Positions 9,570-53,702 of a stretch of 64,000 bases of DNA are shown piece by piece. The number at the start of each line of letters is the position of its first letter. Position 1 is the first letter of the stretch. Under the pieces are notes generated by a model. That model saw only the letters and a list, made by a program, of their open reading frames with translations. It searched no databases and was not told the origin of the DNA. The position numbers were made by a program, and so were the translations under genes. Source of the stretch: an uncultured bacterium. Lineage in GTDB: Bacteria > Cyanobacteriota > Vampirovibrionia > Gastranaerophilales > Gastranaerophilaceae. Location of the stretch: assembly GCA_902798645.1 (NCBI GenBank), contig CADBXV010000001.1, positions 1 through 64,000 of the forward strand, given 5' to 3'.

Positions 9570-10628
9570 CTATATTCCCATTGCTTTCAATACGTCATTT
9601 AGGTCTGATGATGTCTTTTTGACGTCTGCATTTGAATACTTAATAGCGTTATCAGGATCTTTTAATCCGTTTCCTGTCAAAATACAAACTATATCAGACC
9701 CTTCTTTAACAAGTCCTTGAGAATGTGCTTGGATTAAACCTGCGACAGATGCAGCACTAGCAGGCTCACATAAAATACCTTCTGATGAAGCTAACATCTT
9801 ATAAGCTTCTACAATTTTCTCATCATTAACGCATCCTATTTTACCATTACTTTCATCTCTTGCGGCTTCTGCTTGTTTCCAGCTTGCAGGATTACCGATA
9901 CGAATAGCGGTTGCAAGAGTTTCAGGGTTCATAATTCTTTCACCTCGGACAATTGCAGCTGCACCTTCTGCCTCAAATCCCATCATCTTAGGTAAATCTT
10001 TTATTACACCAACCTCTTTGTATTCTTTATACCCTTTCCAATAAGCAGTAATATTACCTGCGTTTCCTACAGGGATAAAGTGATAATCAGGAGCTTTGCC
10101 TAAAGCATCACAAATCTCGAAAGCACCTGTTTTTTGACCTTCAATTCTATATGGGTTAACAGAATTAACAAGGGTAATCGGGTGAGTAGCAGAGATTTCC
10201 CTAACACACTCTAGCGCTCTATCAAAATTTCCTTGAATTGCAATAATCTCAGCCCCATACATCATAGCCTGAGATAATTTCCCCAGTGCAATATACCCGT
10301 CAGGGATAAGTACAAAAGTCTTAATCCCTGCTTTTGCACCATAAGCTGCTGCAGAAGCGGAAGTGTTTCCTGTAGAAGCGCAAATTATAGCACCGGCTCC
10401 TTCTTCCTTAGCCTTAGTTACAGCCATTGTCATGCCTCTATCCTTGAAACTTCCCGTTGGGTTGCAACCCTCAAATTTTAAATAAACATTAGCCTCCAAA
10501 CCGATTTTCTTAGCCAAATTATCAGCTTTAATTAATGGTGTATTGCCTTCGTTCAATGTTACAACAGGTGTTGAATCTGTAACCGGCAAATATTTTCTGT
10601 ATTTATTTATAAGTCCTTGATAGTGCAT
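9570..10628 (-). CDS. thrC: Threonine synthase
   Basis: A PLP enzyme converting O-phosphohomoserine to threonine. 'NEGNTPLI' (26-33), the PLP lysine K62 in 'TGSFKDRGM', '[14 protein letters not shown]' and the C-terminal '[12 protein letters not shown]' are all typical of the short (about 350 aa) bacterial threonine synthases. GAGAGGA lies upstream of the ATG. No other threonine genes are nearby. Confidence 0.95.
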
Positions 10629-10693
10629 AATTTTATCCTCTCATTTTCTCTAATAATAGCACAAAAAGGGTAACTGGTCAGCAGAATATAAAA

Positions 10694-10933
10694 TCCCCTC
10701 TCCGGTTGGAGAGGTCGCAGCCGTAGGAACGTTAGTGACGTACGGATGCGGGTGAGGTTCAATAAAAAATCCAGCTAATTATTAACTATTTTTTTATTAA
10801 AATTAGAAATTATTGTTAAGGATTAATTTTTGATAATCTCATGTTCAACCCTCACCCGAAATTCTAAGTTTCGGAATTAAAATGAATATCATTCCTCAAC
10901 TTGAATTTCTTCCCTCTCCCGATTGAGAGGGGA
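10694..10933. repeat. 240-bp palindromic, MITE-like intergenic element
   Basis: The 332-nt gap between thrC and sdaAA is mostly this element. The outer ends are hairpins CCTCTCC-GGTT-GGAGAGG (10697-10714) and CCTCTC-CCGATT-GAGAGG (10913-10930), themselves in inverted arrangement. Inside lie GGGTGAGGTT (10750-10759) and its inverse AACCCTCACCC (about 10847-10857). No ORF is present. The structure suggests a non-autonomous mobile or BIME-like element different from the GTCAGGT family. Confidence 0.75.
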
Positions 10934-10961
10934 ATTGCTGAACTGTTATCAAAGAGATGAA

Positions 10962-11843
10962 TTATGATTTTTTCCTAAATATAACTTTTTCCAGTTCCAT
11001 AGCTGTTTTAGTTTTAGCAAGTCCTCCCTGAGAGGTTTCTTTAAGCATAGGTGACATCAACTGTCCTGTTATTTTCAAAGTATCAACAATCTCATCCAAA
11101 GGAATTTTGCTTTCAACACCGCATCTTGCAAGCTCTGACGCTGTTACTGCGTGTACTGCAAGAAATGCATTTCTTTTTATACAAGGAACTTCAACCAATC
11201 CGCAAACCGGATCACAAGTTAAGCCTAAAATGTTTTTAAGCGCAAGAGCTGATGCTTGTATAACCTTATTCACTCCTCCTCCGAGCATTTCAGTTAAAGC
11301 CCCTGCTGCCATGGCAGAAGCAACACCGCACTCTGCTTGACATCCTGCAACCGCACCTGCAAGCTGAACCTTGTTAGAGATTAATAATCCTATTGTGCCT
11401 GCCGTTAAAAGTCCGTCTATCTGTTTCTTTTCAGGGATTTTTAATTCCTCGGATACAGCAACAATTACAGATGGTACAATTCCGCACGAGCCTGCAGTCG
11501 GGCATGCTACAATTCTTCCCATTCTTAAATTTTCTTCCGCAGTTGCAAGAGCGTATTCGGTAATTTTTTCAAAAACTTTTCCAAAAATGGCTGAATGCTT
11601 TTTATATTGAGTTTGAAGTTTTGCGCAATCATCCCCGCACCAATTACTTATAGATTTTTCCTTGGATTTTAAGCCGTTTTTTATTGCATCCTTCATTGCA
11701 GTAAGGTTTTCCAATGTTCTAAGCCTTATCGTTTCTGTATCAACTTCCGCTATCCTTGCTTCTTCCTCTTGAGCTATTTCATAAATATGCTTGTTTTGTT
11801 CACGACAAGCGCTTGCAAGTTCCGTAAAAGAAAAAATCCCCAT
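10962..11843 (-). CDS. sdaAA: L-serine dehydratase, iron-sulfur-dependent, alpha subunit
   Basis: Deaminates L-serine to pyruvate and ammonia with a [4Fe-4S] cluster, as an alpha/beta complex. Conserved stretches include 'ACPTAGSCGIVPSV', 'GCQAECGVASAMAAG' and 'CDPVCGLVEVPCIKRN', which carry the cluster cysteines. Length 293 aa is normal for the split enzyme. The ATG overlaps the sdaAB stop by one base (TAATG), so the subunits are translationally coupled. It is the last gene of a three-gene operon headed by a response regulator. Confidence 0.96.
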   Translation of the reverse strand: MGIFSFTELASACREQNKHIYEIAQEEEARIAEVDTETIRLRTLENLTAMKDAIKNGLKSKEKSISNWCGDDCAKLQTQYKKHSAIFGKVFEKITEYALATAEENLRMGRIVACPTAGSCGIVPSVIVAVSEELKIPEKKQIDGLLTAGTIGLLISNKVQLAGAVAGCQAECGVASAMAAGALTEMLGGGVNKVIQASALALKNILGLTCDPVCGLVEVPCIKRNAFLAVHAVTASELARCGVESKIPLDEIVDTLKITGQLMSPMLKETSQGGLAKTKTAMELEKVIFRKKS

Positions 11844-47881: not shown

Positions 47882-47983
47882 TTACTGTGTAATCCCTTTT
47901 GATAACATATCAATTGTTTCAAAATCTAATTTCGTATTCATAATTTACTCTCTCCTTTTTTGAAAAGAAATTATTTTTCAAAT
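47882..47983 (-). pseudogene. Truncated duplicate of the 98-aa gene at 49180-49476
   Basis: About 94 nt (roughly 47889-47982) match 49425-49518 with only about four differences. The copy keeps the upstream hairpin, the ribosome site and the start codon (47941), but after 19 codons (MNTKLDFETIDMLSKGITQ) hits TAA at 47882-47884. It is wedged exactly between two different REP pairs. Confidence 0.88.
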
Positions 47984-47991
47984 AAAACAGC

Positions 47992-48258: not shown

Positions 48259-48302
48259 ATAAAATACAGAACAACAAATGTCGTTCTGTATTTTATGGTG
48301 GA
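48259..48302. other. Copy of the tRNA-Ala downstream hairpin plus CCA-end (att-like)
   Basis: ATAAAATACAGAAC pairs with GTTCTGTATTTTAT (14 bp) and is followed by GGTGGA. The same outer arms and the same CTGTATTTTATGGTGGA (48286-48302) occur at the 3' end of tRNA-Ala (51970-51986), where TGGTGGA is the CCA end and acceptor stem. After 48302 the similarity stops and no tRNA body follows. It could be the second attachment site of an integrated element or the scar of a deleted tRNA. Confidence 0.55.
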
Positions 48303-48409
48303 CCTTCACATACGACATAACACCATATTTTCACCAAAGCGTTGCGTAGTCTAGGATTAAGACCTATCAAAAAATCGAAAAATTTATTACAAAATGTTGC
48401 AGAAATTTT

Positions 48410-48452
48410 TTGAATTTGGCTCTATATTCGTTATAATGCATCATAGAGCCAA
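48410..48452 (+). promoter_or_regulatory. Orphan promoter with palindromic operator
   Basis: TTGAAT (48410-48415), 16 nt, TATAAT (48432-48437). The inverted repeat TTGGCTCTA (48416-48424)/TAGAGCCAA (48444-48452) brackets the -10, an operator-like layout. It points rightwards, into the 3' end of the toxin-antitoxin genes, with no gene of its own downstream. Confidence 0.45.
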
Positions 48453-48498
48453 TTTTAGTAAATATGAGCTTTTATATACTTTTTCGATACCAAAAATC

Positions 48499-48834
48499 TT
48501 AAATTCTCTGTGCTGATATTTTCAAATCATATCCTAAACCTAAGAATATTTTATGCAATATTTCTATACTTGGAATCATTTTACGTGAAAATATTTTATA
48601 TAAAGTTATTCTATGAATTCCAATTAATTTTGCAAATTCACAAATAGTATATTTTGCCTCAATTAATGGTTTAAGATTATAGATTAAATCATTTACATCC
48701 TTAGTTTCTGAATAATCTTCTAGCAGACTATCAAGCCACATTTGAGCATATTCATTATCATTCTTTAATTGTTCTTTTAAGTTATCATTATGTTTTGGAA
48801 AACTATTTAATAATGTTTGTTCTTTTTTATTCAT
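48499..48834 (-). CDS. Antitoxin with HTH domain (HI1420/HigA-like)
   Basis: 111 aa. The C-terminal half 'TICEFAKLIGIHRITLYKIFSRKMIPSIEILHKIFLGLG' (shown in full only by position, about 67-105) is a helix-turn-helix of the HI1420-type antidote family. The N-terminus with 'NDNEYAQMWLDSLLED' is likewise typical. Expected to neutralise the upstream toxin and repress the operon. Its start overlaps the toxin stop by 1 nt. Confidence 0.85.
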   Translation of the reverse strand: MNKKEQTLLNSFPKHNDNLKEQLKNDNEYAQMWLDSLLEDYSETKDVNDLIYNLKPLIEAKYTICEFAKLIGIHRITLYKIFSRKMIPSIEILHKIFLGLGYDLKISAQRI

Positions 48835-49148
48835 TATTGTTTCCTTTCGTTATAATCATTCAGATATTTTGTAGCAGTTTCAATATCTTTACTTTGTTTT
48901 GATTTATTACCACCCGTAAATAACAAAACTATTGTGTTATCTATTTCTGTATAATAAATTCTTAAACCATTGTCGAATTTTATTTCGTAAAGTTCTTCGG
49001 AAAGTCGTCTTATTTTACCATACAAACCTCGTTCAATTTTTGACAATCGTTTATCGACAATAAGTTTTAAACTTTTATCTAGCGAGTTGTACCATTCCAA
49101 ATACGGAATTTTGTTATCTTTTGTTTGGTAATAGATAATTTCTTTCAT
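48834..49148 (-). CDS. RelE/HigB-type toxin (HI1419 addiction-module killer family)
   Basis: 104 aa. 'YLEWYNSLDKSLKLIVDKRL', 'ELYEIKFDNGLRIYYTEI' and 'IVLLFTGGNKSKQSKDIETA' match the HI1419 family, a RelE-superfamily ribosome-dependent mRNA interferase. The toxin gene comes first, as in higBA-type modules. An extended -10 (TGCTACAAT) lies 6 nt before the ATG and there is no Shine-Dalgarno, so the pair can be transcribed as a leaderless message independent of the gene 31 nt upstream. Confidence 0.88.
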   Translation of the reverse strand: MKEIIYYQTKDNKIPYLEWYNSLDKSLKLIVDKRLSKIERGLYGKIRRLSEELYEIKFDNGLRIYYTEIDNTIVLLFTGGNKSKQSKDIETATKYLNDYNERKQ

Positions 49149-49154
49149 GGTTAT

Positions 49155-49163
49155 ATTGTAGCA
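49155..49163 (-). promoter_or_regulatory. Extended -10 promoter of the toxin-antitoxin pair (leaderless type)
   Basis: On the minus strand TGCTACAAT-N6-ATG (49148). Confidence 0.55.
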
Positions 49164-49179
49164 TATCGGCTACAAATAT

Positions 49180-49476
49180 TCAAGAGTAAATATCACGCAT
49201 ATAGAATTCCTCGACATCTGGTTTGCAAGAGTCCCAATCAGATGAAAGTGAAGCATAGAATGTTAGGACTTTGAGGACGCTTGAGATATCCCCTTTAGAG
49301 ATTGCTGTCAATAATCCTGCAATACGGTTTGCCATAAACTTATTCAAAGTTTTCATGTCCTTTTGCGTCAGCTTGCCTTTTGAGTGCATTTCCTCAATCG
49401 GTCCACTGCGGAATGTAAATTGCGTAATCCCTTTTGATAACATATCTATTGTTTCAAAATCTAATTTTGTATTCAT
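49180..49476 (-). CDS. Small hypothetical protein next to the toxin-antitoxin pair
   Basis: 98 aa, helical, acidic at the end ('KPDVEEFYMRDIYS'), no membrane segment. 'KGKLTQKDMKTLNKFMANRIAGLLTAI' suggests a helical bundle. GGAG lies 6-7 nt before the ATG and a TTGAAAA...TTTTCAA hairpin just upstream. The first 19 codons and upstream region are duplicated at 47882-47983. The family is not recognised; being minus-strand and 31 nt before the toxin it may be a third operon member. Confidence 0.65.
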   Translation of the reverse strand: MNTKLDFETIDMLSKGITQFTFRSGPIEEMHSKGKLTQKDMKTLNKFMANRIAGLLTAISKGDISSVLKVLTFYASLSSDWDSCKPDVEEFYMRDIYS

Positions 49477-49575
49477 AATTTACTCCATCCTTTTTTGAAA
49501 AGAAATTATTTTTCAAATAGTGGAAAAAGTAAATATGCAAAAGACAAATGGTTTAATTTATGATAGTATTTCTGT

Positions 49576-51429
49576 ATGGCTTCACTTTATGACTATTGCA
49601 AACAAAATGGCAAAGAGTACTTACTGCAAGAATGGGATTATGAATTAAACAAGAATATTAATCCTCAAACAATTCGTGCATATAGCCATAAAAAAGGTTG
49701 GTGGAAATGTTCTAAATGTGGATATAAATGGGAAACTAAAGTCATCAATAGAACTCACCAACATACAGGTTGTCCTGCTTGTGCAGGTTCAATTTTACTT
49801 GTTGGCAAAAATGATTTGGCAACAAAATATCCTGAAATAGCAAACGAATGGAATTATGAGAAAAATGTCGATATACTACCACAAAATATAAGACCTGGTT
49901 CTCATAAAAAATATTGGTGGAAATGTTCCAAATGTGAAAATGAATGGTTAGCTAGTCCAAATAATAGAACTAGCCATAATTCAAAGTGCCCTGCATGTAC
50001 TCATAATAATGGACAAGGATGGCAAGCTAGTCCAAATAACAAAACCGATAATAAATCAAGAAGACCAATTCTCACTCATTCTTGTAAGCATATCAGTGGG
50101 AAAACTGATTTAGTCACTAGTCATCCTGAATTAATAAAAGAGTGGCATCCTACCAAAAATGGAGATTGTAAACCATCAGATGTTACATATGGAAGTGGTA
50201 AAAAAGTATGGTGGATTTGTTCTACCTGTGGAAAAGAATGGCAAGCTTCGATATATAGTCGTGTAAAAGGTGGTAATTGTCCTCAATGCTGGCGTTCAAA
50301 CCATACATCATTTCCAGAGCAAGCAATCTATTACTATATTCAAATGTTATACCCTGATGCATTAAATAGTTATAAAGCAGAATTTTTAGGAAGAATGGAA
50401 CTTGATATTTATATTCCAACTTTAAAGTTGGCTATTGAATATGATGGTAAAATTTGGCACAAAGAGGATAAACGTAAAAGTGAACAGAAAAAATATAAAC
50501 TTTGTAAAAAGGCAGGAATTAAACTTATAAGAATTAGGGAGCAAATGGCTCCTCTTGGTTCAGATATTTCAGATGAAGAATTTGGTATAATAAAATTCAA
50601 TGGTAAAGAAAGCTTAGAAGAAACCATTAAAGATTTAATTAAAAGAATACCTTTTAAACATAAAAAAATTGATATTAATCTTAATAGAGATGAAAATAAA
50701 ATACGTTCATTGTATCAAGGAAAAATTAAAGACTCTTTGAAAGATTTATATCCAGATGTTGCAGATGAATGGCACCCAACTAAAAATGGACTATTAAAAC
50801 CAGAAAATTTTTATGCTGGTTCAGAGTATAAGGCTTGGTGGCTTTGTCATACATGTGGATATGAGTGGGAAACTACAATAAAACAGAGAACCGGAAAAAA
50901 ATTACATAATTGTCCTCAATGTTCACACCAAACCGTTGTGGTAGGAAAGAATGATTTAGCAACTACGCATCCTAACTTAGCTGCCGAATGGCATCCAACT
51001 AGAAATGGTAGCCTGACTCCCAAAGATGTTATAACAGCAATGGGGAAAAAGTTTTGGTGGAAATGTGCTAAATGTGGTTATGAATGGCAGGCAACTATCA
51101 ATCATAGAAAAGCATCCCATTCGGGTTGTCCATTATGTGCAAATAGAGTGGTTGTAGCAGGAATTAATGATTTAAAAACAAAGTTCCCACACATAGCAAA
51201 AGAATGGGATTATGAAAAAAATGCTCCATTAATGCCAAGTCAAATTTTTGCAGGTTCAAGTAAGAAAGTATGGTGGATTTGTTCTATTTGTGGCAAATCT
51301 TGGCAAGCAACGATTAGCAGCAGGACACATTATAACCGAACGGCTTGTCATAGTTGCAATTTGACAAAAGGTAGAAAAAGAATACCAAAAAATGAAAATC
51401 AATTGCATTTTGAATTTGATAATAATTAA
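49576..51429 (+). CDS. DUF4379 zinc-ribbon array with embedded Vsr/PD-(D/E)XK-like nuclease domain
   Basis: 617 aa. Six zinc ribbons of the DUF4379 type, each 'xWWxCxxCG.eW....RT......CPxC': C45/C48/C66/C69, C117/C120/C138/C141, C215/C218/C235/C238, C424/C427/C446/C449, C497/C500/C518/C521 and C569/C572/C591/C594. Residues about 145-170 are a decayed partial repeat without cysteines. Between ribbons 3 and 4, about 250-330, lies a nuclease-like core: 'MELDIYIPTLKLAIEYDGK' (D277, E288) followed by 'KLCKKAGIKLIRIRE', as in Vsr/DUF559 endonucleases. Probably a DNA-binding endonuclease of the accessory island; biological role unknown. It overlaps the next, convergent gene by 4 nt. Confidence 0.88.
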   Translation: MASLYDYCKQNGKEYLLQEWDYELNKNINPQTIRAYSHKKGWWKCSKCGYKWETKVINRTHQHTGCPACAGSILLVGKNDLATKYPEIANEWNYEKNVDILPQNIRPGSHKKYWWKCSKCENEWLASPNNRTSHNSKCPACTHNNGQGWQASPNNKTDNKSRRPILTHSCKHISGKTDLVTSHPELIKEWHPTKNGDCKPSDVTYGSGKKVWWICSTCGKEWQASIYSRVKGGNCPQCWRSNHTSFPEQAIYYYIQMLYPDALNSYKAEFLGRMELDIYIPTLKLAIEYDGKIWHKEDKRKSEQKKYKLCKKAGIKLIRIREQMAPLGSDISDEEFGIIKFNGKESLEETIKDLIKRIPFKHKKIDINLNRDENKIRSLYQGKIKDSLKDLYPDVADEWHPTKNGLLKPENFYAGSEYKAWWLCHTCGYEWETTIKQRTGKKLHNCPQCSHQTVVVGKNDLATTHPNLAAEWHPTRNGSLTPKDVITAMGKKFWWKCAKCGYEWQATINHRKASHSGCPLCANRVVVAGINDLKTKFPHIAKEWDYEKNAPLMPSQIFAGSSKKVWWICSICGKSWQATISSRTHYNRTACHSCNLTKGRKRIPKNENQLHFEFDNN

Positions 51430-51668
51430 TAATTTCGATTTTGTTCCTTATAAGAAAGTGCTAAGCATAAAGCAATAAACCATGTTATACCGGCAAAAAG
51501 TCCGCACCAAGTTAAGATTTTAATTGTAGTAATTTCGTTATGTGCAAGATTTTTATTATTTGCAATGTTAATTGGTAAAGTAAAAATCTTAATTACAATA
51601 AACAGAATCAAAACGATTGCCAATATTGGCAAAATGATTTCAATGAAATTTGTATTAATATTTTCCAT
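51426..51668 (-). CDS. Small membrane protein resembling superinfection immunity proteins
   Basis: 80 aa with two transmembrane helices (about 10-32 and 52-72). 'LPINIANNKNLAHNEITTIK' followed by 'WCGLFAGITWFIALCLALSYK' resembles the phage T4 Imm/superinfection-immunity family, whose members block injection of a second phage's DNA. It is convergent with the zinc-ribbon nuclease, overlapping 4 nt. Assignment by pattern only; the family signature is short. Confidence 0.65.
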   Translation of the reverse strand: MENINTNFIEIILPILAIVLILFIVIKIFTLPINIANNKNLAHNEITTIKILTWCGLFAGITWFIALCLALSYKEQNRNY

Positions 51669-51942
51669 ACTAACTCCAATTACTTATTCATAAGAAAAAC
51701 TTATGACTGTTTTCTAATACTTTACCATGAAAATACAAAACCCAGTAAAATAGGCACTTTTTGTATAAACCCCGAATTTCTTTTATGGTTAAAAGTCTTG
51801 TTACATGCTTGTTTATAACCTTCGTAGACATCGAACTTTTGATGAAAATTTGAGCAAGTGAAATGGCTAAAACCCAGTAATAACTGAGAACATATTTTTC
51901 ATCCAATCCAGCGAGCGAATCACCAAGATATAATCAAGCATA
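51669..51942. other. Gap between membrane protein and tRNA-Ala terminator
   Basis: No supported gene. A 72-codon minus-strand open stretch (51688-51906) has unlikely composition and no start signals; it may be decayed coding DNA. Confidence 0.4.
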
Positions 51943-51980
51943 ATAAAATACAGGAATGATGCATCATTCCTGTATTTTAT
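51943..51980 (-). terminator. Perfect 19-bp palindrome downstream of tRNA-Ala
   Basis: ATAAAATACAGGAATGATG followed directly by its inverse. It abuts the CCA end of the tRNA and likely ends its transcript. Its outer arm sequence is repeated at 48259-48296. Confidence 0.8.
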
Positions 51981-52055
51981 GGTGGAGGTTAGGAGATTCG
52001 AACTCCTGACCCTCTGCGTGCAAAGCAGATGCTCTACCAGCTGAGCTAAACCCCC
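51980..52055 (-). tRNA. tRNA-Ala (anticodon TGC)
   Basis: 76 nt including an encoded CCA. The acceptor GGGGGTT pairs with AACCTCC (one G-U pair). 'TAGCTCAGCTGGTAGAGC' is the D arm, the anticodon loop TTTGCAC carries TGC (52020-52022 complement), and the T arm is 'AGGAGTTCGAATCTCCT'. All canonical bases are present. Confidence 0.97.
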
Positions 52056-52105: not shown

Positions 52106-52256
52106 GGGGGGTATTTATTACTTATTAAAATATAAATTGTAACAATTTGTTAAGCTGATTCACATATTAGTAAATTTCTGTTCTTCACATGTTTTACATG
52201 GGTATATTTGTGTGAAGTTCTATATAATATTTTATAAAAATAAGAAAGGAAAGTTT

Positions 52257-53702
52257 ATGAACATTACCCCTAATTACAACATCAATTATTTAAGATTTAA
52301 TCAAAGAATTAGTAATCAATCCAATCAAACCGAGCCGGTTGAAATTAAGAATCCTGCATTCAAAATGAATTCCAAAACTATACAAGCCGGAGCTGTTGCT
52401 GCTGCCATTAGCGCAGCTGTCACAGGAGGGCTTGAAGCTACTAAAAATTTAAATAATAAAAAAGAAGAAAAAATTCCTACAAGAGAAGAATTTGAAACAA
52501 CATTGGATGAAAATACAAAACTTAAAAATCACAAAAAGAAATATTGGTTAAAAGCGTTTGATAAAAATCCTAAAAACACTCTTGCCTTTTATTATTTAGA
52601 AGATGACAAAGGAAATCGTTTTGTTGATGATAAAAAGTGTTACTTTGATATTGATGACATCGCAAATTCTGAAAAAGTATTTAATAATCCAGAGTTAGTC
52701 AGAGAAATTATTAACAAAGAAGATGAAAATGGTATTAAGTTATTTAGCTTTGGACAGGCGATAAAAGTAGCAGAAAATATAGCAGATTATCCTAACGGTT
52801 TTAAACTTATGATGTCTATTAAAGACAAGGATGGTGATTTCAGATTCAGAAACGTCTATAAAGATTTTGAGCATGTGAATATTTTTGAAGAAAAACCTGA
52901 ACTTGCCGTAAAATATGCCAATATGAAAAATGAAACTGGATACCCCAGATTTGATATGGAAGCAATCAATAGGCTGGTTGAATTAAACAATACATTTGAC
53001 GCAGCGGATATTGATAACGCTTTAGAGCTTAAACGTGATAACGGTGATTATTTATTTGATGATGCTCCGCAAGATGTCGCATTGGATGCATTGAAAGAAA
53101 ACCCAAAAGAATTTTTAGAATTATGTAATATCAAAGTTCCTAACAGATACAAATACATTCAACCTGACGTATATACAAGTGCAAGGACTCTGCATGCATA
53201 TAAGAATTATCCGGAAGAAACTAAAACATTATTACAAATGCCTCATCAAAATATATACAACCAAACCAGATTTGAACAGCCTGATATTAATATTGACATA
53301 TCTAAAGCTTTTAAATATGCACCAAAATCTTTCCTTGCTCTTTCAAAAATACAAGACGAAAAAGGTAATTACAGATTTAGTGCGTATGACATTCACAATT
53401 TTTTAGAAGATCTAAAAGAATTGGACAAAGAAACAATAAAAGCTATAAACGAACTGTCAAAAATTGAATACCAAAGAGACGGTGAAAGAGGAAGATGGAC
53501 AGAGCTCGACAATAACCAAATAAAAGAAGGAATTGAAGCGTATAAAAAATATCCTGAAGAAACAGAATACATAATACAACACTACCTTAGAACTACCCCT
53601 AAATACGAAGAGGAACCATACATTCCAACAATAAAACAAGTTGAACGATTCATAAATGACAGGCAAAATTTTGAATTTGGTTTGACAAAAGTTGAGTTAT
53701 AA
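52257..53702 (+). CDS. Repeat protein with N-terminal Phe-basic motif
   Basis: 481 aa, started at 52257 behind AGGAAAG. The N-terminal region contains NPAFKM (32-37), followed at once by an Ala/Gly-rich hydrophobic helix (about 43-58). The rest is about six loosely repeated units of 40-50 residues, each ending near '[D/N]-x-x-G-x-[Y/F]-x-F' (KDKDGDFRF, KNETGYPRF, KRDNGDYLF, QDEKGNYRF) with 'AFKYAPKSFLALSKI'-type helices between. Resembles a helical-repeat scaffold. Not recognised in any known family. Possibly envelope-associated. Confidence 0.68.
   Translation: MNITPNYNINYLRFNQRISNQSNQTEPVEIKNPAFKMNSKTIQAGAVAAAISAAVTGGLEATKNLNNKKEEKIPTREEFETTLDENTKLKNHKKKYWLKAFDKNPKNTLAFYYLEDDKGNRFVDDKKCYFDIDDIANSEKVFNNPELVREIINKEDENGIKLFSFGQAIKVAENIADYPNGFKLMMSIKDKDGDFRFRNVYKDFEHVNIFEEKPELAVKYANMKNETGYPRFDMEAINRLVELNNTFDAADIDNALELKRDNGDYLFDDAPQDVALDALKENPKEFLELCNIKVPNRYKYIQPDVYTSARTLHAYKNYPEETKTLLQMPHQNIYNQTRFEQPDINIDISKAFKYAPKSFLALSKIQDEKGNYRFSAYDIHNFLEDLKELDKETIKAINELSKIEYQRDGERGRWTELDNNQIKEGIEAYKKYPEETEYIIQHYLRTTPKYEEEPYIPTIKQVERFINDRQNFEFGLTKVEL

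Follow-up and report, generated by a model that had tools for sequence, protein, structure and literature searches.

The gene at positions 49576-51429 of the window (the 64,000-nucleotide stretch that was analysed, positions 1-64,000 of contig CADBXV010000001.1, from an uncultured bacterium of the Gastranaerophilaceae) probably encodes a homing endonuclease of the free-standing EDxHD/Vsr type, which would read DNA through an individualised array of zinc fingers. This reading was preferred because the core profile matched 3r3p, the core gave VIA Z scores of 8.4-8.8 with 3r3p and Vsr and its key residues were invariant, and also because of the empty site of relative L021, the relocation of the window cassette, phage AR9 g146, the neighbour of relative L018, the phage enzymes of PMC12350094 and the in-register agreement of modules. 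The Vsr/EDxHD-like PD-(D/E)XK core would make the DNA cut, and six DUF4379 zinc modules, three per side, would anchor the enzyme along an extended DNA site and give it its specificity, with a different but fixed set of variable residues in every module. Cutting of an allele without the gene would lead repair to copy the gene in, and the gene would thus spread on its own, settling between host genes or within other mobile elements. We infer the cleavage of DNA, its contact with the modules and the homing reaction, in which the cut allele receives the gene, from the comparisons given below. The relatives appear to behave as selfish single-gene elements that enter cleanly between host genes; the gene would be a bacterial homing-endonuclease version, and is not a proven defence gene. 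This would tie the many unannotated bacterial 'zinc-ribbon domain-containing proteins', a large family, to homing-type mobility.

The protein was delimited from its open reading frame, Pfam matches and profile and model comparisons, as follows (window coordinates, strand, feature):

49576..51429, plus: 617-aa protein, three DUF4379 fingers, a Vsr/EDxHD-like nuclease core and three further DUF4379 fingers
49621..49788, plus: DUF4379 module N1, aa 16-71 (E 2.1e-20)
49837..50004, plus: DUF4379 module N2, aa 88-143 (E 2.6e-20)
50131..50295, plus: DUF4379 module N3, aa 186-240 (E 1.2e-23)
50296..50760, plus: predicted nuclease core, aa 241-395, PD-(D/E)XK/Vsr-like (residue invariance, profile and model comparisons)
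50761..50928, plus: DUF4379 module C1, aa 396-451 (E 4.0e-20)
50977..51147, plus: DUF4379 module C2, aa 468-524 (E 2.4e-21)
51193..51360, plus: DUF4379 module C3, aa 540-595 (E 1.6e-20)

PF14311 (DUF4379) matched the protein with 391.6 bits (Pfam gathering threshold 24.5) in six full copies, split 3+3 around aa 241-395, which confirms the six ribbons that the first-pass annotation had placed on the two sides of a core. Pfam describes the domain as 'probable treble clef zinc finger'; the fingers of the full-length AlphaFold model gave a VIA Z of 11.9 with mt-SAF33. The window gene is the single DUF4379 gene of its own genome (2.07 Mb), and only 10 of the 288 sampled genomes of the family carry the domain, which is therefore accessory. 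In the homologue set, a linker of exactly 18 aa separates most neighbouring modules, bacterial (N,C) module numbers include (3,3), (5,5) and up to (4,8) or (8,3), and arrays reach up to 12 modules. The core is C-terminal in most viral homologues; one human-gut phage record has a homologue with an embedded core.

Seventy homologous cores, 27-74% identical to the window core, were compared. E248, D277, E288, D290, G291, H295 and K306 are invariant in all 70, and R319, E322 and others are nearly so; D277 and E288 had already been singled out in the first-pass annotation, together with a KLIRIRE strand that is also present. Searched against PDB sequences, the profile of the 70 cores gave a single match (E 3.4e-5), to 3r3p ('Mobile intron protein'), which is the catalytic domain of I-Bth0305I, an EDxHD homing endonuclease. 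The region of E288 and K306 aligns with 3r3p, with D290 facing N and H295 facing A in the crystallised chain; the catalytic set is therefore not identical, and the equivalence to I-Bth0305I is incomplete. Pfam models matched among the 70 cores were the MTES_1575 Vsr-type REase (57/70), DUF2726 (36/70) and DUF559 (19/70).

The AF2 model of the core (pLDDT 87.5, pTM 0.82) was re-aligned with VIA to VC1899 (Z 9.2), I-Bth0305I (3r3p, Z 8.6, 94/97 residues), Can2 (Z 8.5) and Vsr (1cw0, Z 8.4), and the core inside the full-length model to Vsr (Z 8.8) and I-Bth0305I (Z 8.7). Foldseek of the core model against the PDB found no match at E <= 0.001, and the fold was assigned from the VIA re-alignment and the sequence profile. 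The best structure matches among viral models were named endonuclease, treble clef zinc finger protein and homing endonuclease. The refuting condition of the first-pass annotation, lack of a PD-(D/E)XK fold in segment 250-330, thus did not hold, and the Vsr-like character of the core was borne out by the 3r3p profile match and VIA (Z 8.4-8.8). Profile and model together support a Vsr/PD-(D/E)XK-like core, and the 617-aa protein is a probable DNA-cutting enzyme.

The comparison with known systems separates shared parts from differing arrangements. I-Bth0305I shares the Vsr-like core and is, as predicted for the window protein, a long multi-domain DNA binder, but it is intron-encoded, whereas the window core is embedded between two zinc arrays and has D290 and H295, which the crystallised chain lacks. 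The Vsr mismatch endonuclease (1CW0) shares the core fold and differs in being a small repair enzyme, linked to Dcm, with no zinc array. The trypanosome mitoribosome proteins mS66 and mt-SAF33 share the treble-clef module but have no nuclease, and are mitoribosome components or assembly factors. The same domain content occurs in phage proteins: CapR/DUF4379-like repeats followed by an EDxHD/Vsr-like domain were reported in phage group II introns in 2025, and were proposed to be a large unrecognised outgroup of EDxHD/Vsr homing endonucleases (PMC12350094). The statement of the first-pass annotation that the function of DUF4379 arrays was not established is thus partly outdated. These phage enzymes have the same two building blocks as the window protein; however, they carry 3-5 repeats before a C-terminal core and lie in a phage intron, whereas the window protein is 3+3 and is encoded on a bacterial chromosome, outside any intron. 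The domain pairing was therefore already known from these phage cousins, and the embedded-core bacterial form is a variant of it.

Protein g146 of phage AR9, annotated 'Hef-like homing endonuclease' and encoded in an intron inside a three-piece (split) RNA-polymerase beta' gene, has DUF4379-like fingers (finger HMM E 1e-14) and a homologous core (core HMM E 6.4e-20, hhalign 98%). Its core alignment ends at aa 281-315 and is followed by another C-terminal region (aa 316-494), with no C-terminal finger array, whereas the window protein continues with DUF4379 modules. Hef itself is described as an active endonuclease that cleaves near the gene encoding it and resembles none of the known homing endonucleases (PMC3322345).

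A base-level empty site was found for one relative, the (5,5) homologue L021, whose gene is flanked by Melibiase and SpoU methylase genes. These two genes adjoin without a nuclease in 20 of the 22 genomes of the genus: the gap is 14 bp in L162 (SpoU protein 96% identical), and some other genomes have a longer gap, still nuclease-free. The nuclease is present in G330 and G331 alone, at one and the same position, and the two proteins are sisters (100/92). The site holds no integrase and no passenger gene, and the L021-type nuclease is a precise insertion into an otherwise empty gap between housekeeping genes. Free-standing homing endonucleases occupy intergenic regions between conserved genes (PMC2988022), and the presence/absence pattern at L021 resembles theirs, although vertical descent with many losses could also have left it. 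L021 is the one relative with a clean empty site between housekeeping genes; at L009 and L014 the neighbouring genes are themselves accessory. The L021 locus is where the target should be looked for.

The window gene lies in an island next to a tRNA gene, with the following features:

48286..48302, plus: 17-bp direct repeat CTGTATTTTATGGTGGA, left copy, island boundary (repeat search and congener comparison)
48499..48834, minus: HTH antitoxin (HTH_3; Pfam/PHROG match)
48834..49148, minus: HigB/Gp49-like toxin of the linked toxin-antitoxin pair (phrog_3445 'toxin', E 1.7e-17)
49180..49476, minus: 98-aa gene of unknown kind, bordering a variable cargo slot (G274 has this part of the island at 90% identity but no nuclease there)
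49556..51682, plus: cassette common to the window and contig C47 of congener G274 (79% DNA identity; outside flanks differ; 5' junction sharp)
51426..51668, minus: 80-aa small membrane protein, DUF3302-like (below cut-off), convergent with the nuclease
51970..51986, plus: right copy of the same repeat, overlapping the 3' end of tRNA-Ala
51980..52055, minus: tRNA-Ala (TGC), integration hotspot (tyrosine-integrase element at the same tRNA in G244)

The accessory island of the first-pass annotation is real: it spans 48303-51969 between the two copies of CTGTATTTTATGGTGGA (starting at 48286 and 51970), and in G128 both of its sides are joined at tRNA-Ala. The toxin-antitoxin pair is supported as well. 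The 'immunity-like' label of the membrane protein traces to one weak match (phrog_1039, E 0.0015); the gene stands beside the nuclease in the window and G274 only, and elsewhere by a CoiA-like gene or, as homologues, in other contexts, and an obligate nuclease/immunity pair was set aside.

Contig C79 of G274 carries the window tRNA-Ala island at 90% identity (48336-49557) with a 308-aa gene replacing the nuclease, and the breakpoint 49556/49557 is visible in the alignment; other congeners have different cargo beside the 98-aa gene. On contig C47 of the same genome, DNA homology to the window is limited to 49556-51682, in unrelated surroundings; it begins 20 bp ahead of the nuclease start codon and takes in the nuclease and the small membrane gene convergent with it. 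The cassette has thus relocated between congeners. The two nuclease copies are at different sites, and simple homing into one allele therefore does not explain both. At the window's own site, the congeners compared offered no clean empty allele: the two cassette flanks were never directly joined and had other cargo between them. The window copy, with the small membrane gene as passenger, is cargo in a variable slot of the tRNA-Ala island. No group I or II intron was found near the gene, and tRNA-Ala was the only Rfam match in the window.

Further rearrangements were seen around this tRNA. A segment of about 100 bp from the 5' end of the 98-aa gene has a second copy at a distance of 1.5 kb (47883-47987 and 49421-49525, 95% identity), and copies of the segment precede different cargo genes in several congeners (L148, L149, L151 and L152); it is possibly a recombination seam of the island. 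At the same tRNA-Ala in G327 (L131, 6650-9565) there are part of a serine recombinase, the small membrane gene and a gene for a CoiA_N-like protein. In the window, a 496-aa gene with no Pfam match (52212-53702) separates tRNA-Ala from the conserved gene that follows; in G128, G286 and G261, which have no such gene, the tRNA and the conserved gene are far closer.

The first-pass annotation had considered a defence or mobile-element role plausible and proposed a neighbourhood survey of homologues. The mobile context holds; the defence part found no recurrent partner, linked methylase or known defence family, and the survey itself revealed no clear defence or mobile bias. Among 235 near genes of relatives, no gene family recurs as a partner of the DUF4379 nucleases, and the neighbourhoods favour a stand-alone gene. 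The main rival explanation, which we consider unlikely, is a single-gene defence nuclease: the array would recognise phage or plasmid sequences, the core would cut them and the island would be a defence hotspot. The tRNA-Ala island of the window copy does contain a toxin-antitoxin pair as well as a variable cargo slot, and conflict systems include relatives of the core that are of the MTES_1575 Vsr type (PMC3710099). Some neighbours of relatives also match defence models (type II/III methylases, DRT/AbiP2, PtuA and SoFic), and the DUF4379 gene of G277 has type I restriction-like genes around it. Matches to defence models are more frequent for near than for far genes (as raw family counts, not distinct genes), but far control genes match them too, and the window protein had no confident match among the PADLOC anti-phage families (only PDC-S69, E 0.0074 over 48 aa). 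Neither a protection partner nor a linked methylase recurs, so that a specific cutter would need a target absent from the host, and a relative inserts cleanly between housekeeping genes, as selfish genes do. Restriction-modification was likewise set aside, with no linked or recurring methylase: methylase models were matched by about 3 of the 235 near neighbours, and no annotated methylase was found among the island genes scanned.

Less likely still, the protein could be a weapon between mobile elements, carried by integrative elements (serine recombinase, Mob_Pre) and cutting competitors or protecting an occupied slot. Serine recombinases (8/235 near genes) are among the commonest neighbours, as are HTH regulators and Mob_Pre relaxases, and relatives occur on plasmids and phages. 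A fusion in L046 (1119-5297, 1393 aa) joins a large serine recombinase (Resolvase, Recombinase, Zn_ribbon_recom) in frame with a ten-finger DUF4379 nuclease. However, the excess of mobile genes (12/235 near genes against 2/104 in the far control) is not significant (p 0.24), and the L021 site lacks any element. A nucleic-acid binder without nuclease action (a regulator or RNA-binding scaffold), like the trypanosome mitoribosome DUF4379 proteins, is highly improbable: the solved DUF4379 structures found are mitoribosomal proteins only (mt-SAF33 and mS66) and core-less homologues exist in family relatives, but the acidic, His and Lys core residues, needless for a non-catalytic scaffold, are invariant across 70 divergent proteins.

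Two observations concern homing-type domains near relatives. In L018, a NUMOD4-HNH-3xNUMOD1 homing endonuclease (9788-11017) lies 5 bp downstream of the DUF4379 nuclease. The NUMOD1 tail of L130 is suggestive, but was set aside as falling below the Pfam cut-offs.

The modules of the arrays were compared with each other (658 distinct modules, 53 columns). Sixteen of the 53 columns are hypervariable. Modules within one protein agree at 70-75% of framework columns as against 12-17% of variable columns. Between the window protein and its nearest homologue, from G274, in-register modules agree at 61% of the variable columns; out of register the figure is 11-20%, and none of the 720 permutations does better than the true register. 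The modules are thus individualised, as expected of a fixed-sequence reader with putative DNA contacts, and the suggestion in the first-pass annotation that the array sets DNA specificity modularly gains indirect support from each module keeping its own variable residues. In a test of change after a shift of insertion site, variable-residue differences tracked overall divergence.

The arrays (up to 12 modules, usually with the exact linker) are a candidate modular DNA-reading code around a cutting core. Doubtful as we hold it to be, a stronger proposal is that the DUF4379 modules form a rule-based reading array in which each ~74-aa unit (56-aa finger and 18-aa linker) would read a fixed number of bases, through contacts by about 16 variable positions, and the central core would be re-aimed by gain and loss of modules on both sides. 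If true, zinc fingers and TALEs would be joined by a further natural class of proteins, new to science, that recognise DNA in a modular way.

The turnover of modules was examined from the stretch between N2 and N3, which the first-pass annotation had read as a decayed repeat (aa 145-170) showing module duplication and loss:

50005..50097, plus: stretch in which part of N2 is duplicated in tandem, net gain 75 bp (not present in the nearest homologue; disorder predicted)

The sequence 49944-49984 is copied in frame at 50019-50059 (local score 42, shuffle maximum 32), the window has an additional 75 bp between N2 and N3 relative to the G274 homologue (73% identical overall), and aa 143-170 are disordered in the AlphaFold model. 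The stretch is a partial duplication of N2, not a lost or worn-out module. It is no sign of module loss, but the wider claim that arrays gain and lose modules stands on other proteins. Modules C5-C7 of the twelve-finger array of L086 (8580-10694) are 89-94% identical to each other, a recent whole-module amplification, and the number of modules varies between sister proteins (L013 3+4 and L017 3+3; L034 6+4 and L061 7+3). Array-only DUF4379 proteins with 7-11 modules and no evident nuclease core were also seen in family relatives (L136, 5536-8280; L135, 5917-7827; L137, 6698-9232).
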